NCBI RefSeq assembly: GCF_016901575.1
Contig: NZ_JACJKQ010000002.1
Location: 248,001-312,000, forward strand
From: Enorma phocaeensis
Lineage (GTDB): Bacteria > Actinomycetota > Coriobacteriia > Coriobacteriales > Coriobacteriaceae
DNA: 64,000 bases
Reading direction: 5' to 3'
Shown here: piece by piece, positions 57,737 to 64,000 of the stretch
How positions within the stretch are numbered: the stretch's first letter is position 1
Layout: each line of letters starts with the position of its first letter
Made by a program: the position numbers and the translations under genes
The notes under the pieces: generated by a model
Told to the model about the DNA's origin: nothing
Database searches by the model: none
What the model saw: the letters and a program-made list of their open reading frames with translations, nothing else

Positions 57737-57934
57737 CATTCTAAAGCATCGTAGCGTCGCATGCGGACACACATGGACCATCCACATGGGAGCGCCGGTA
57801 GCAAGAATCTTGCTTGTCGGCGGCCGACGCGTTTCCGGAGGTCCTCTTGTATCGGGCGCTGCGCTAAAATGGAGCACAGTCATCTTCGAGACCAGCGACG
57901 GAGCGCCTCGAAGCAAGCGCACAAGGAGGAAGCC

Positions 57935-59629
57935 ATGCCAACTGTTTCCGCACCGATCGATGCGACCAAGACTTCTGCCTGGAAGGCCCTGGCAGCGCAT
58001 CATGACAAGCTCGTCGAGGAGGGCATCGACCTCAAGGGCTGGTTCGCCGCCGATGCGAAGCGCGTCGAGAAGCTCAGCTTCGAAGCGGGCGACCTGCACT
58101 TCGACCTCTCCAAGAACCTCATCACCGACGAGACCGTGAAGCTGCTCGCCGACCTCGGCCGCGCGGTGAACCTCGAGCAGCGCCGTGACGACATGTACGC
58201 CGGCGTGCACATCAACACCACCGAGGATCGCGCCGTGCTGCATACCGCGCTTCGTCGTCCGAAGGACGAGATCGGCACCGTCATGGTCGACGGCCAGGAT
58301 GCCGTCGCCGACGTGCACGAGGTCCTCGATCGCATGTATGCCTTTGCCGAGAAGGTTCGCTCCGGCGAGTGGAAGGGCGTCTCGGGCAAGCGCATCGAGC
58401 ATTTGGTGTCCATCGGCATCGGCGGCTCCGACCTGGGTCCGGTCATGGTGTACGAGGCGCTCAAGCCGTATGCCGACGCCGGCATCGACTGCCGCTACAT
58501 CTCCAACATCGACCCCAACGACCAGGCAGAGAAGCTCCGTGGCCTCGACCCGGAGACCACGCTCGTGATCATCGTCTCCAAGACCTTCACCACGCTCGAG
58601 ACTCTCACCAACGCGCGCGAGGTCAAGGCTTGGATGCTCGACGCCCTCAAGGCCGCCGGCGCCGTCGACGGCACGCCCGAGCAGAACGCCGAGGCTATCA
58701 AGAAGCACTTCGTCGCCGTTTCCACCGCGCTTGACCTCGTCGCTGAGTTCGGCATCGATCCCGAGAACGCGTTCGGCTTCTGGAACTGGGTGGGCGGCCG
58801 CTACTCCGTCGACTCCGCCGTGGGCCTCTCGCTCATCGTGGTGTATGGACCCGAGCGCTTCCAGCAGTTCCTTGCGGGCTTCCATGCCATCGACGAGTAC
58901 TTCCAGAAGACCCCGCTCGAGGAGAACGTCGTCGCGCTCATGGGCCTCATGAACGTGTGGTACGTGAACTTCTTCGGCATGAAGAGCCATGCCGTGCTGC
59001 CTTACACCCAGTATCTGCATCGTTTCCCGGCATATCTGCAGCAGCTCACCATGGAGTCCAACGGCAAGAGCGTGCGCTGGGACGGCACCCCGGTCACTTC
59101 CGGCACCGGCGAGGTGTTCTGGGGCGAGCCCGGCACCAACGGCCAGCATGCGTTCTATCAGCTCATCCATCAGGGCACCGAGGTCATCCCTGCGGACTTC
59201 ATCGCCTTCGTGAACACCGCCAACCCCGCCAAGGACGGCGACCAGGACGTGCACGAGCTGTTTCTCGGCAACTTCCTCGCGCAGACCAAGGCGCTCGCGT
59301 TCGGCAAGACGGCCGACGAGGTGCGTGCAGAGGGTACGCCCGAGCAGATCGTTCCGGCGCGCGTGTTCACGGGCAACCGTCCGACCACCTCGATCTTCGG
59401 CGACGAGCTCACGCCGTTCGCGGTGGGCGAGCTCATCGCCCTGTACGAGCACATCACCTTCACCGAGGGCACCGTCTGGGGCATCGACTCCTACGACCAG
59501 TGGGGCGTCGAGCTCGGCAAGCAGCTCGCCAAGCAGATCACCCCGGCGTTCCATGACGACGAGGCCCTCGCGGCGCAGGACGCCTCCACGAAGGCGCTCA
59601 TCGAGTTCTATCGCACACACCGCAAGTAA
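57935..59629 (+). CDS. pgi: Glucose-6-phosphate isomerase
   Basis: A 564-residue glycolytic enzyme interconverting glucose-6-P and fructose-6-P. Motifs: [12 protein letters not shown] near residue 155, [10 protein letters not shown] near 205, the signature [17 protein letters not shown] near 275, and the active-site His and Lys in [13 protein letters not shown] and [13 protein letters not shown] 57935 follows AAGGAGGA. It is the long form (about 550 residues), with a strong terminator at 59685. Monocistronic. Confidence 0.96.
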
Positions 59630-59883: not shown

Positions 59884-60618
59884 ATGGCGACCAAACTCGA
59901 TGAGACGTCATCCACGCCGCTGTATGCCCAGCTCATGGCCGCGATCGTGTCTGCTATCGACGATGGCACCTATCAAATCGGCGATCGCATTCCCTCGGAA
60001 GAAAAGCTCATAGAGACCTATGCGGTGAGCCGCATCACGGTGCGTCGTGCCATCCGTGAGCTGGTTGAGGACGGGCGCCTTGTCAAGCGCCCCGGTAAGG
60101 GCACTTATGTTAACGAGCGTCAGGTCAAAGCGAAGTTTACGCAGGATAACGACGTAAACAGCTTCACGAATTCTTGCGCACAGAACGGCATGATCGCAGG
60201 GGCGCATCTCATTTCGCTCGATGTGGTTCCCGGCATGGATCAGGAAAGTGACTTCTTCGGGTATGGTGCAAAGGGCAGGCTTCTGCGCATCGAGCGTGTT
60301 CGCACCGCCGACGGCGTGCCCATCATGGTGGAAGAGAACTACTTCCCCTATGAGCGGTATGCGTTTCTTGAGCAAGAAGGCCACGAGAACACATCGCTTT
60401 TTGCGGTCATCTTCGCCCATCTGCATATGAAGCCCAGCCTGAAAGAGCCATGCACGCTCGATATCGAGAAGGCACCGACCACTTTGGCGGCGCATTTAGA
60501 GGTACCTTGTGGCGAGCCGCTCTTCCTGTATGTAGGCCGCTATTTTGACGATAACGGCGAGGCCATGTATCTAGGCAAGCAGCATATCGTGGGGTCACGC
60601 TTCACGTTCCGTATCTAG
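59884..60618 (+). CDS. GntR/HutC-family (UTRA) transcriptional regulator
   Basis: A 244-residue regulator. The N-terminal winged helix (residues 10-75: PSEEKLIETYAVSRITVRRAI, then KRPGKGTYV) is GntR type; the C-terminal ~165 residues are a UTRA ligand-binding domain of the HutC/FrlR group. ATG 59884 follows AAAGGGGCG. It directly precedes the PTS operon, in the same direction, so it probably senses a phosphorylated sugar or Amadori product and controls that operon. Confidence 0.9.
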   Translation: MATKLDETSSTPLYAQLMAAIVSAIDDGTYQIGDRIPSEEKLIETYAVSRITVRRAIRELVEDGRLVKRPGKGTYVNERQVKAKFTQDNDVNSFTNSCAQNGMIAGAHLISLDVVPGMDQESDFFGYGAKGRLLRIERVRTADGVPIMVEENYFPYERYAFLEQEGHENTSLFAVIFAHLHMKPSLKEPCTLDIEKAPTTLAAHLEVPCGEPLFLYVGRYFDDNGEAMYLGKQHIVGSRFTFRI

Positions 60619-60917
60619 CAGGTGCCCGCCGCTTGCGTCAGGTGTTTGTCTGTTCCTTCATCCCGTATTATCCCGTACTACCGCTTACCACGATAATACT
60701 ACCGTTTGCGGATTCCGATTCCCTGCTCCCAGTATGCAACCTCTGTTAGAGCCCTATGTAAATATGGCCTATTACCTGCATAAATAATAGATACAGCTGC
60801 TTGCATTGGGAGAATCTGCCGCAGTGGTTTCCACAAATGCCCTCTGGCGGTTCTGTGCCTTGAATGATATAACGGGTTATGACAGGTTATACCGACTCGC
60901 AAGGAGAGGGCGGAAAC
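60619..60917. promoter_or_regulatory. Regulatory region before the PTS operon
   Basis: In this 299-base gap, CCCGTA occurs at 60662 and 60672 (10 bp apart), GTATTATC at 60665 is the inverse of GATAATAC at 60692, ATAAC-GG-GTTAT forms a 12-bp dyad at 60869-60880, and GGTTATACC follows at 60885. These AT-rich repeats in otherwise GC-rich DNA are candidate GntR operators; which are real cannot be decided here. Confidence 0.45.
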
Positions 60918-61340
60918 ATGGCGCACATCATCATCGCCTCGCATGGCGGACTCGCCGAAGGTATGGTCGATTCTATCGGCATGGTTGCGGGAGGTGCCGC
61001 AGACCGCATCGAAACCTACAGCCTCCATCCGGGCGAGAACCCCAACGACTTTTATGAGGCGATGCGCGAGCGCGTTGCTCATGACAGCGAGCAGTACATC
61101 ATCATGTGCGATATCAAGGGCGGCAGCGTTCACAATGCCCTTTTCCGTCTTACCGAGTTCCCCAACGTTGTTGTATTCGCAGGCGTGACGCTTGCTATGG
61201 CGCTCGAAGTTGTTCTGACGGTTCAGGATCGTCTTGAGCCCGATGCAGCAGAGCGCGTTCTCGATGCCGCGCGTGCGGGCGTCACCGTTTCGTTTGGTGG
61301 CGCGCTTCCGACTGACGAAGCGGAAGACGAGGAATTTTAG
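60918..61340 (+). CDS. PTS mannose-family EIIA component
   Basis: A 140-residue cytoplasmic phosphocarrier that takes phosphate from HPr. His9 in IIIASHGGLAEG is the predicted phosphorylation site. The remainder is the EIIA-Man fold (CDIKGGSVHNALF near residue 69 and GVTLAMALE). It is a free EIIA rather than the EIIAB fusion of E. coli ManX. ATG 60918 follows AAGGAGAGG. It begins a five-gene PTS-enzyme operon. Confidence 0.9.
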   Translation: MAHIIIASHGGLAEGMVDSIGMVAGGAADRIETYSLHPGENPNDFYEAMRERVAHDSEQYIIMCDIKGGSVHNALFRLTEFPNVVVFAGVTLAMALEVVLTVQDRLEPDAAERVLDAARAGVTVSFGGALPTDEAEDEEF

Positions 61341-61386
61341 CTTCAAGCCGCGCGAGGGGCGCGGTTGCAAGGGAAAGGGGAGGCTC

Positions 61387-61854
61387 ATGATTAAGCTTCT
61401 GCGTGTCGACCATCGTTTGCTCCACGGACAGGTTGCTGTGTCCTGGAAGAGTGCGCTCGACATCGACTGCATCCTGGTGGCAAACGACAAGGTTCCGGGC
61501 GACGCATTCCGTAAGTCTGCCATCAAGATGGCTAAGCCGGCAGACACGAAGCTTGTTATCAAGACCATCGATGATTCCATCGCGGCAATCACAAGCGGCG
61601 TCACCGACAAGTACAAGCTGCTTGTTGTGGTGGAGTCCATTGCCGACGCTGCTCGCCTGTGCCGCGCCTGCGGCATCAAGCAGCTCAACCTCGGCGGAAC
61701 CAAGGCAACCCCCGAGACGCGCAGCCTTTCCAAGGCTGTGAATGTCACCGAGGATGAGACGGCGCTTCTGCGCGAGCTTATCGCCGAGGGCGTGGATGTC
61801 GAGATTCAGATGGTTCCCGACGATAGCCCGGTCAAGGCGGAGCGCGTTCTCTAA
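61387..61854 (+). CDS. PTS mannose/fructose/sorbose-family EIIB component
   Basis: A 155-residue EIIB that passes phosphate from EIIA to the sugar. The active-site His13 lies in RVDHRLLHGQV, and VVESIADAARL, LNLGGTKATPET and the C-terminal DVEIQMVPDD fit EIIB-Man. ATG 61387 follows GGGGAGG, 46 bases after EIIA. A 215-base gap separates it from EIIC, unusual within such an operon. Confidence 0.92.
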   Translation: MIKLLRVDHRLLHGQVAVSWKSALDIDCILVANDKVPGDAFRKSAIKMAKPADTKLVIKTIDDSIAAITSGVTDKYKLLVVVESIADAARLCRACGIKQLNLGGTKATPETRSLSKAVNVTEDETALLRELIAEGVDVEIQMVPDDSPVKAERVL

Positions 61855-62069
61855 AGCAGCCTCGCAGGCGAATCTAGCACACAAATCCATAGATGCGTAA
61901 GCCCCGCATGCCGGGCTCGATACACCCGTTCAGTTTTTCGCTCAGCGGGAAGGGACTTTTGTGCGCAAATTCGCCCATACATCGGTCACCGCGACGCTGG
62001 TCAAGCCATGCGTTCGGGAAGATACGGCGGTCTAGCTACAGGTGCTAGGCCAAGAAGGAAGGAGTGGAG
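61855..62069. other. 215-base gap within the PTS operon
   Basis: No gene is supported here. A small stem AGCCC/GGGCT lies near 61901-61918, and the rest is mixed sequence; a stretch of pyrimidines (TTTTTCGC) at 61934 follows about 16 bases after the stem. It could be an attenuator or mRNA processing site. Confidence 0.35.
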
Positions 62070-62852
62070 ATGTTAGTCCAAGCGATTTTGCTCGGCCTCG
62101 TCGCCATGCTCGGCAACGCTGAGTACCTGTTGGGTACCAGCTGCCTCTCCCGTCCCCTGGTTATGGGTGCTCTTACGGGCATCATCATGGGGGATATTCC
62201 CACCGGCGTGACGCTGGGTGCCACGTTGGAGCTCGCCTTTATGGGTTCGTTCTCCATCGGTGCGAGCATTCCTCCCGAGATGATCTCGGGCACGGTGCTG
62301 GGTACGGCCTTCACCATCTCGACGGGTTCGGGGCTGGAGACGGCGCTCACTATCGGCATTCCTGTGGCATCGCTCGTCCTTATCGTAAAGAATGTCGGCA
62401 TGGTCTTCATTCTGCCGCCGTTTGTGCACAAAGCCGATGACTATGCGGCCAAGGGTGACATGAAGGGCGTCGCTCGCATGCATTTCCTGGGCGGCTTCTT
62501 TGGCGTGAACCTCATCATCGGCCTGTGCGTGGCAATCGGCTTCTACGCAGGCGGCCCTGCCGTCCAGGCACTGCTCGACATCATTCCTGAGTGGGTTTCC
62601 AACGGTCTGCAGATCACCATGGGCCTGCTGCCCGCCATCGGCTTCGCGCTGCTGCTCAACATGATTATGAACAAGAAGGTTGCCTGCTTCTTCGTGCTTG
62701 GCTTTGCACTCTCTGTATACCTCGGTATCCCCACTACTGGCGTTGCCATCTTTGGCGCGGTCGCCGCGATTGTGCTCAGCCAGCTCCAGCATGCTGGCTC
62801 CACGCAGGTAGCTCTCGAGGGAGGTATGGACGATGACGACGAAGACTTCTAA
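62070..62852 (+). CDS. PTS mannose-family EIIC membrane component
   Basis: A 260-residue sugar channel subunit with about eight hydrophobic segments (first VQAILLGLVAMLGNAEYL). The EIIC-Man features GIIMGDIPTGVTLGATLELAFMG near residue 37 are present, and the C-terminus is acidic (GGMDDDDEDF). ATG 62070 follows AAGGAAGGAG with 6-base spacing; GTG 62064 touches the ribosome site. It overlaps the EIID gene by 20 bases. Confidence 0.92.
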   Translation: MLVQAILLGLVAMLGNAEYLLGTSCLSRPLVMGALTGIIMGDIPTGVTLGATLELAFMGSFSIGASIPPEMISGTVLGTAFTISTGSGLETALTIGIPVASLVLIVKNVGMVFILPPFVHKADDYAAKGDMKGVARMHFLGGFFGVNLIIGLCVAIGFYAGGPAVQALLDIIPEWVSNGLQITMGLLPAIGFALLLNMIMNKKVACFFVLGFALSVYLGIPTTGVAIFGAVAAIVLSQLQHAGSTQVALEGGMDDDDEDF

Positions 62853-63687
62853 TGCGGTTGAGTCCGCGGCTTCGGGCGAGAAGAAACTCACCAAAAAAGA
62901 TCTCAACAAGGTTGTCCTGCGCTCGCTGGGCATGGAGTGGGACTGGAACTACGAGCGGCAGATGAACATGGCATTTTGCTACAGCATGCTGCCGGTGATC
63001 AAGAAGCTCTATGACAAGCCCGAGGATCGTATCGACGCCATGAAGCGCCACCTCGAGTTTTTCAACACCACCCCTCAACTCTCCACGCTCATCCTCGGCA
63101 TCACTGCCGCAATGGAGGAGACTGCTGCCAACGACCCTTCGTTCGACAAGGAGAGCATCTCCAACGTCAAGGTCTCGCTCATGGGTCCTTTGGCGGGCAT
63201 CGGCGACTCCTTCATCTGGGGAACACTGCGCATCATTGCTACCGGCGTTGGTGTGTCGCTGGCGAGCCAAGGCAACATTTTGGGTCCGTTGCTCTTCCTC
63301 CTCATCTTCAATGTCCCTGCACAAGGTCTGCGTTACTACCTCATGCATATGGGCTACAAGCTGGGTAGCGGCTTTCTGCAGAAGATTCAGGAGAACGGTC
63401 TCATGGAGACCCTCACCTATGGCGCATCGGTGCTCGGCCTCATGGTGATCGGTTCCATGACCGCGGGCAACGTCGCGGTGAATGTGCCGCTCGTCATTGG
63501 CGAGGGAGATGCCGCGACCACGTTTGGCGATATCTGCAACACCATCATGCCTGGTCTGCTGCCCCTCGCTTTCACACTGTTCATCTACTACCTGGTGAGC
63601 AAGAAGAACGTCAAGACCACCACCTTGCTGCTGCTGTTGGTTGCCGTGGGTCTGGTCGGCTCGTTCTTTGGCATCCTGGGCGTCTAG
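62833..63687 (+). CDS. PTS mannose-family EIID membrane component
   Basis: A 284-residue subunit paired with EIIC. A soluble N-terminal part (residues 1-120) has the EIID-Man blocks MEWDWNYERQMNMAFCYSMLP and FFNTTPQLSTLILGITAAMEE, followed by SLMGPLAGIGDSFIWGTLRII and several membrane helices to the C-terminus. ATG 62833 lies 20 bases inside the EIIC gene, so translation is coupled. Confidence 0.93.
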   Translation: MTTKTSNAVESAASGEKKLTKKDLNKVVLRSLGMEWDWNYERQMNMAFCYSMLPVIKKLYDKPEDRIDAMKRHLEFFNTTPQLSTLILGITAAMEETAANDPSFDKESISNVKVSLMGPLAGIGDSFIWGTLRIIATGVGVSLASQGNILGPLLFLLIFNVPAQGLRYYLMHMGYKLGSGFLQKIQENGLMETLTYGASVLGLMVIGSMTAGNVAVNVPLVIGEGDAATTFGDICNTIMPGLLPLAFTLFIYYLVSKKNVKTTTLLLLLVAVGLVGSFFGILGV

Positions 63688-63706
63688 GCGTCTGACCCAT
63701 TCTGGC

Positions 63707-63741
63707 GGCGCGGGAGCACCGGAAGGTTCCCGTCCCGCGCC
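63707..63741 (+). other. Hairpin between EIID and SIS gene
   Basis: GGCGCGGGA (63707-63715) pairs with TCCCGCGCC (63733-63741) and is followed by GTTTCG. The stem is moderately strong with only three Ts after it, so partial termination or processing is likelier than a full stop of transcription. Confidence 0.4.
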
Positions 63742-63831
63742 GTTTCGCGGCGCCGCAACGCATTTTTGTCCTGCACGCCGCATTCGAATTCACATCTTGA
63801 GAGACTTTTTTGATTCGTAAGGAGCTTAACT

Positions 63832-64000
63832 GTGTCTGATATGGTCAATTTCAATATGCAGAAGAAGGTCGACAGCGTGAACGGCGCCCTTGCCTTGCGC
63901 CCCCAGATCGAGCAGATCGTTGACGGCATCTGCGAGAAGGGCTACCGCAATATTTGCTGGATGGGCATCGGCGGCACCTGGGCGAGCGCCATGCAGGCGA
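63832..64000 (+). CDS. SIS-domain sugar-phosphate enzyme, N-terminus (probable Amadori deglycase), runs off window
   Basis: Only 56 codons are visible. After LRPQIEQIVDGICEKGY the segment ICWMGIGGTWASAMQ is the phosphosugar-binding loop of SIS-domain proteins. Placed after a mannose-family PTS behind a GntR/UTRA regulator, it matches FrlB/GfrF-type deglycases that split fructoselysine- or glucoselysine-6-phosphate; other SIS isomerases/deaminases remain possible. GTG 63832 follows AAGGAG at 63820-63825. The 3' part is outside the window. Confidence 0.8.
   Translation, partial: MSDMVNFNMQKKVDSVNGALALRPQIEQIVDGICEKGYRNICWMGIGGTWASAMQA

Follow-up and report, generated by a model that had tools for sequence, protein, structure and literature searches.

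A probable gfr-type phosphotransferase operon with two putative deglycases for glycated lysine in Enorma phocaeensis

The stretch of DNA considered here, hereafter called the window, comprises 64,000 nucleotides of Enorma phocaeensis (contig C2:248001-312000 of a 2.36-Mb assembly of 108 contigs, GCF_016901575.1); the contig extends 8 kb beyond it. At its end lies a plus-strand gene cluster encoding, in this order, a GntR/UTRA regulator, components EIIA, EIIB, EIIC and EIID of a mannose-family phosphotransferase system (PTS) and two SIS-domain proteins, designated SIS1 and SIS2, the second of which is located past the window end. The original prediction, a fructoselysine/glucoselysine PTS-deglycase operon, had listed the first six genes in this order, and all were found on the + strand with matches to the predicted families, whose E-values (5e-15 to 1e-108) excluded chance. 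It had also considered the deglycase to be cut by the window; the sequence after position 64000 completed SIS1, ending at 64836, and revealed a second SIS gene directly behind. Window coordinates correspond to those of locus L008 plus 59499, and positions past 64000 are extrapolated along the same contig. The features are as follows.

59884-60618, + strand: GntR/UTRA (HutC-type) transcriptional regulator (Pfam GntR, E=8e-18; UTRA, E=1e-18)
60866-60891, no strand: candidate operator region upstream of EIIA (palindrome stretch identical in Collinsella An2)
60918-61340, + strand: PTS EIIA, mannose family, in GfrA-like position (Pfam EIIA-man, E=5e-15)
61387-61854, + strand: PTS EIIB, sorbose/mannose family, GfrB-like (Pfam PTSIIB_sorb, E=1e-45)
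about 62070-62852, alternative GTG start at 62064, + strand: PTS EIIC, GfrC-like (Pfam EII-Sor, E=4e-70)
62833-63687, + strand: PTS EIID, GfrD-like (Pfam EIID-AGA, E=1e-108)
63832-64836, window ending at 64000, + strand: SIS1, GfrF/FrlB type, 334 aa (full gene from the contig)
64905-65993, beyond the window, + strand: SIS2, GfrE-like, about 363 aa (contig sequence past the window)
66071-66733, beyond the window, after SIS2: resident HAD-family phosphatase gene

The phospho-acceptor histidine of the SHG motif in EIIA and the phospho-acceptor motif HGQV in EIIB were both conserved. EIIB, EIIC and EIID displayed 59%, 50% and 52% identity, respectively, to the proteins of the Klebsiella reference locus (L104), which consists of a sigma-54 activator, EIIA, EIIB/C/D and two SIS proteins in the order of Salmonella gfr. 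A maximum-likelihood tree of concatenated EIIC and EIID placed the transporter in a clade of 32 members (support 98/96) that also includes Klebsiella Gfr, the sigma-54 operons of Enterococcus, and systems of Listeria and lactobacilli, but neither ManYZ nor AgaCD of E. coli. Inside this clade, the three Coriobacteriaceae operons formed a group (100/99) with those of Erysipelotrichaceae and of an E. faecium plasmid.

The first SIS protein formed one group with GfrF of Salmonella and Klebsiella and FrlB of B. subtilis and E. coli, separate (100/100) from AgaS and from the isomerase domain of GlmS, so that the clustering with AgaS named in advance as grounds for abandoning the deglycase prediction was not observed, and the family-model search returned no AgaS-family match for it. 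Its closest solved structures were 2a3n and 8glr, followed by B. subtilis FrlB (3eua, E=3e-31). The Salmonella protein of PDB 2a3n, which we take to be GfrF (STM4540), is about 83% identical to the second SIS protein of the Klebsiella locus; no papers citing PDB 8GLR/9OTJ were found. A genome scan gathered 80 named relatives of SIS1 at 58-99% identity, the best-matching genome being that of Collinsella sp. An2 (99%). As indicated by their contexts, 44 of the 80 lie beside a FrlD-like (PfkB) kinase without PTS and 23 beside a PTS and a SIS2-type gene, the remainder being accompanied by a PTS only (4/80) or by neither or an incomplete set (9/80). Three kinases tested beside these relatives scored 296-370 bits against the FrlD (fructoselysine-6-kinase) cut-off of 247, and an Intestinimonas epimerase scored 368 bits against the FrlC (fructoselysine-3-epimerase) cut-off of 305.

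The Intestinimonas loci are composed of ABC transporter genes, deglycase, FrlC and FrlD, a layout agreeing with AF_00949-00955 of strain AF211. There, AF_00949 encodes the kinase, AF_00951 the deglycase and AF_00952-00955 the ABC transporter; the strain turns fructoselysine into butyrate, and the locus is up to 25-fold induced on lysine (PMC4697335). SIS1 belonged to a clade of 89 members (100/100) in which kinase and PTS contexts were mixed, the PTS/kinase label requiring at least two changes on the tree; the same deglycase clade is thus paired in nature with either a FrlD kinase or a Gfr-type PTS. Residues G47, S94, G97, T99, E101, E223 and H239 and the C-terminal RRY motif were invariant in 92 sequences, and E223 and H239 are spaced 16 residues apart, as in the Glu/His pair of GlmS. 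In FraB, E214 is catalytic, and the substitution E214A abolishes activity (PMC10100877). The assignment of SIS1 as a predicted fructoselysine-6-phosphate deglycase is well supported, because its clade is linked to kinases, neighbouring genes passed the FrlD and FrlC models, the Intestinimonas locus is induced and the FraB-type Glu/His pair is invariant.

Enterobacterial GfrF was found on another branch; SIS1 stems from a separate lineage and is not an orthologue of the Salmonella protein. Operons with homologous PTSs would consequently use fructoselysine-6-phosphate deglycases of different lineages. C. cadaveris and some lactobacilli (L024, L073, L083, L086) displayed a further arrangement, in which a deglycase of the SIS1 clade is combined with a FrlC-like epimerase and with a PTS from another branch related to Gfr, and SIS2 is absent.

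Among curated models, SIS2 matched GlmS/GFAT best (64 bits). The same held for Klebsiella GfrE (115-123 bits), in keeping with the literature, where GfrE is described as the GlmS homologue (PMC12735817). SIS2 retained the equivalents of GlmS K485, E488 and H504 and formed a separate clade of 12 members (100/99), whose placement as sister of the GfrE clade (91/81) is suggestive but not settled. Given these GlmS-type models, the conserved catalytic set and a clade of its own beside GfrE, SIS2 is probably GfrE-like, with glucoselysine-6-phosphate as its likeliest substrate. Facts on GfrE and GfrF were drawn from a review and a 2025 Salmonella paper; in the text of the latter glucoselysine-6-phosphate is assigned to GfrE and fructoselysine-6-phosphate to GfrF, while one figure legend has the opposite.

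In E. faecium and Salmonella, gfr is defined by PTS A-D together with FrlB-like and GlmS-like deglycases (PMC12735817, PMC12675984), and the gene content described here corresponds to this definition, with SIS2 as the candidate for the GlmS-like enzyme. With the putative second deglycase just past the window and the PTS within the Gfr branch, the predicted gfr-like operon gained support, and the locus is very probably a gfr-type, PTS-coupled operon for the catabolism of glycated lysine with two deglycases. We infer the transport substrate, both enzyme activities and the regulation from relatives and context. EIIA/B/C/D would import fructoselysine, and probably glucoselysine too, phosphorylating them at C6 during transport. 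SIS1 would then act as fructoselysine-6-phosphate deglycase, and SIS2 would cleave glucoselysine-6-phosphate, or a close relative, to fructose-6-phosphate and lysine, such that two distinct enzymes might release lysine and a usable sugar phosphate from the glycated lysine of heated food. Fructoselysine is accordingly regarded as a very likely substrate, glucoselysine as a somewhat likely one. A kinase had also been sought past the window end, and none for fructoselysine was present behind the SIS genes; the cluster holds no kinase, and no gene of the genome reached the FrlD cut-off in an NCBI model search. None would be needed if the PTS phosphorylates the substrate on entry.

Several points weigh against this reading. 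EIIA is just 26% identical to Klebsiella GfrA and SIS1 32% identical to Salmonella GfrF. NCBI FrlB, the best model for SIS1, was matched with 73 bits, below its cut-off of 430 (Klebsiella GfrF likewise fell below it, with 86 bits). SIS2 shares about 30% identity with GfrE, and several clade-fixed positions beside the catalytic residues differ between the two. The E. faecium operon that served for biochemical work appears, by its regulator and gene order, to be of the L014 type, and no measured substrate was found in the literature for members of this exact pair of SIS1 and SIS2 clades.

It is possible, if rather unlikely, that SIS2 acts on another adduct of the 2-amino-2-deoxy-hexose type, the operon then serving fructoselysine and something other than glucoselysine, with import and SIS1 unchanged. 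Such a role would agree with the fully supported clade of SIS2 and with residues beside the active site that are particular to this clade: the residues two and one places before the catalytic lysine are A/L in the SIS2 clade and E/T in GfrE, and T98 and S70 are replaced there by E and T, respectively. The divergence from GfrE also far exceeds that of the PTS from Gfr PTSs (50-59% identity). Arguing for glucoselysine-6-phosphate instead are the retained Lys/Glu/His set of GlmS type, the GfrE position next to a Gfr-type PTS and the placement of GfrE as closest relative in the tree. It seems doubtful that the SIS2 clade, found in Collinsella, Erysipelotrichaceae and one E. faecium plasmid, consists of deglycases for a glycation product new to gfr catabolism; if true, the PTS operon would process two different food-derived adducts.

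In E. faecium pC10-7-1 and in two Holdemanella, a HAD phosphatase gene overlaps SIS2 or comes directly after it, an arrangement that initially pointed to inheritance as one unit. An operon of eight genes, with this phosphatase as an integral detoxifying step, nevertheless appears unlikely, despite a second FrlB-like SIS/HAD pair in 27 genomes. The gene was present in 67/67 Coriobacteriaceae genomes, was no more than 12 kb away from the ABC-F ATPase gene downstream in 43/59, stayed in an ABC-F/TatD neighbourhood and was found outside the operon in genome G033; the copy described here is 38% identical to that of E. faecium. Since every genome of the family has it and it resides close to ABC-F, it was rejected as a defining eighth gene. 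A functional link may still exist, because in 20/53 genomes the distance from a deglycase-like gene to the resident HAD gene is below 10 kb. In the recurring pair of those 27 Coriobacteriaceae genomes (e.g. G032:C1:1022862-1024584), a distant FrlB-like SIS gene, whose product is about 25% identical to SIS1, lies at most 2 kb from a HAD gene with 36-38% identity to that of the window.

It is improbable that the operon serves alpha-glycated amino acids (fructose-asparagine/aspartate, by a FraB-like enzyme or one resembling B. subtilis FrlB) instead of epsilon-fructoselysine. The deglycase fold is common to all of these enzymes, and the structural match to B. subtilis FrlB cited above would agree with such a role, but long branches separate SIS1 from the FrlBs of B. 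subtilis and E. coli, its group contains deglycases beside kinases and epimerases passing FrlD and FrlC, and the PTS belongs with Gfr PTSs. An amino-sugar operon (a galactosamine, N-acetylgalactosamine or glucosamine PTS with SIS deaminase/isomerases, aga or NagB-II like) is very improbable and already contradicted: aga operons also combine EII-Man family and SIS genes, and AgaW, below cut-off, was the best curated model for EIIC, but EIIC and EIID stand apart from AgaCD and both SIS proteins from AgaS, no deacetylase, aldolase or tagatose-6-phosphate kinase is present in the operon, and the SIS1 clade is linked to FrlD kinases, not to amino-sugar genes. Identity of SIS1 or SIS2 with AgaS, GlmS or NagB-II was rejected by trees and family models.

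Like Salmonella gfrABCDEF, represented by the Klebsiella locus, the operon combines a mannose-family PTS A-B-C-D with a FrlB-like and a putative GlmS-like SIS deglycase and lacks a kinase, its EIIB/C/D being 50-59% identical. It differs by GntR/UTRA in place of the sigma-54 activator, by the reversed deglycases (F before E), by a GfrF-type enzyme of a different lineage (32%), by a GfrE-type enzyme from a divergent clade and by its EIIA (26%). The swapped regulator and the divergent second deglycase are what distinguishes it from known gfr. The sigma-54 gfr-like operons of E. faecium and E. raffinosus (L014, L017) have the same gene set, SIS1 proteins of the common 89-member clade (54-55% identical) and EIIB/C/D at 51-60%, but they have another regulator, the two deglycases in the other order and a SIS2 of a different clade (28% identical). 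The order A-B-C-D-SIS1-SIS2 is shared with Holdemanella, Longicatena and E. faecium pC10-7-1 (L012, L022, L025, L026), where identities reach 67-83% for EIIC/EIID, 72-76% for SIS1 and 47-51% for SIS2, although Holdemanella and Longicatena possess a sigma-54-type activator where GntR is found here; no characterisation of these four operons was found in the literature. For pC10-7-1 and Holdemanella, EIIC, EIID and SIS1 taken together are 72-83% identical. Just 3' of the gfr-like operon, Holdemanella biformis carries a further cluster (L026:11424-16996) of GntR, EIIC, EIID, EIIB, SIS2-type, HAD and SIS2-type genes.

The suggested likeness to frl of E. coli and B. subtilis held for the deglycase and failed otherwise, neither kinase nor epimerase being present here. 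With E. coli frlABCD and the Intestinimonas ABC-FrlB-FrlC-FrlD loci the operon shares deglycase chemistry (SIS1 65-66% identical to Intestinimonas deglycases), whereas in frl systems a permease or ABC transporter takes up the substrate and FrlD phosphorylates it, both steps being assigned here to the PTS. The locus of Collinsella aerofaciens TSDC17.2 (L105) similarly clusters GntR regulators, PTS A-D and SIS deglycases, but its deglycases are of other lineages and precede the PTS, it includes an additional major facilitator superfamily transporter, a third SIS gene and an epimerase, and EIIC/D are 41-44% identical. A passage of PMC10255453 states that Collinsella intestinalis degrades dietary glycation products. 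In a gut Actinomycete, the operon would offer a way of using glycation products of food through a PTS and without a kinase, and it is of a lineage differing from loci of C. aerofaciens type. Known biochemistry is left unchanged, the pathway being of a known kind and found here in a rarer form; it provides concrete genes for finding out what gut bacteria are able to remove fructoselysine, and if a second adduct is removed as well.

The locus has no sigma-54-dependent activator, the enterobacterial and enterococcal gfr form. The GntR gene occupies the position that this activator holds in the Holdemanella, Longicatena and Klebsiella gfr loci, and it is found at the same position in G033 and Collinsella An2. 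It was treated as a regulatory variant, because versions from Listeria and lactobacilli use GntR too. The GntR/UTRA protein is the probable repressor of the operon and might be released by the phosphorylated substrate. Just upstream of EIIA, the palindrome ATAAC-GG-GTTAT is followed by AGGTTATACC. Compared with An2, most of the gntR-EIIA spacer is diverged, the exceptions being a few short islands and the final segment ahead of EIIA, which holds ATAACGGGTTATGACAGGTTATACC; the palindrome stretch and the leader up to the EIIA start are identical in both. The ATAACGGGTTAT region may be the operator bound by the GntR protein; the palindrome alone, matched exactly once in the window (two strands of one site) and equalled in 9/100 shuffles, is not statistically striking. 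Scans for promoters and terminators did not exceed the results on shuffled sequence, and no RNA elements were detected within 8 kb at Rfam gathering thresholds. Two gaps inside the operon are unusually long, EIIB-EIIC with about 209 bases (61855-62063) and EIID-SIS1 with 144 (63688-63831), those of most homologous operons being about 10-30 bases; the latter gap includes a perfect 10-bp inverted repeat (63706-63715/63733-63742) without Rfam match.

The operon was confined to 3/67 Coriobacteriaceae genomes (G000, G001, G033), the ones with this SIS1 version at no less than 60% identity; most of the 67 contained relatives at 25-40%. Both the SIS1 and the EIIC+EIID trees nested the operon inside Erysipelotrichaceae/Firmicutes operons, and it was thus apparently acquired horizontally. 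A tract of 10.2 kb that starts in the EIIA leader and reaches the ABC-F gene (L008:1365-11559, window 60864-71058, compared with L109) was 98.5% identical to An2 (G001), as opposed to 84% for gntR and 89% for pgi, which suggests a recent exchange of the operon and its downstream neighbours between the two species. On pC10-7-1, a conjugative E. faecium plasmid from chicken, a set A-B-C-D-SIS1-SIS2-HAD adjoins genes for a bile salt hydrolase and a conjugated bile salt transporter. This plasmid is a plausible vehicle of transfer in the gut.

Upstream, pgi has a deglycase locus as its neighbour in each of the three genomes from this genus (window 57761-59629; G001:C44:39563-41238; G002:C33:11851-13528). 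It encodes glucose-6-phosphate isomerase, which interconverts both deglycase products. The adjoining loci differ, being of the window type here, two clusters in G001 and of the C. aerofaciens type in G002. Since pgi has no such neighbour in G033 and adjoins dissimilar loci in the other genomes, the adjacency was considered mere neighbourhood and functional coupling was set aside. In Collinsella sp. An2 (L109, reverse strand), a second mannose-family PTS cluster lies directly upstream, between pgi and the operon, and includes another SIS gene of FrlB/GfrF type, with 41% identity to an E. faecium megaplasmid protein.

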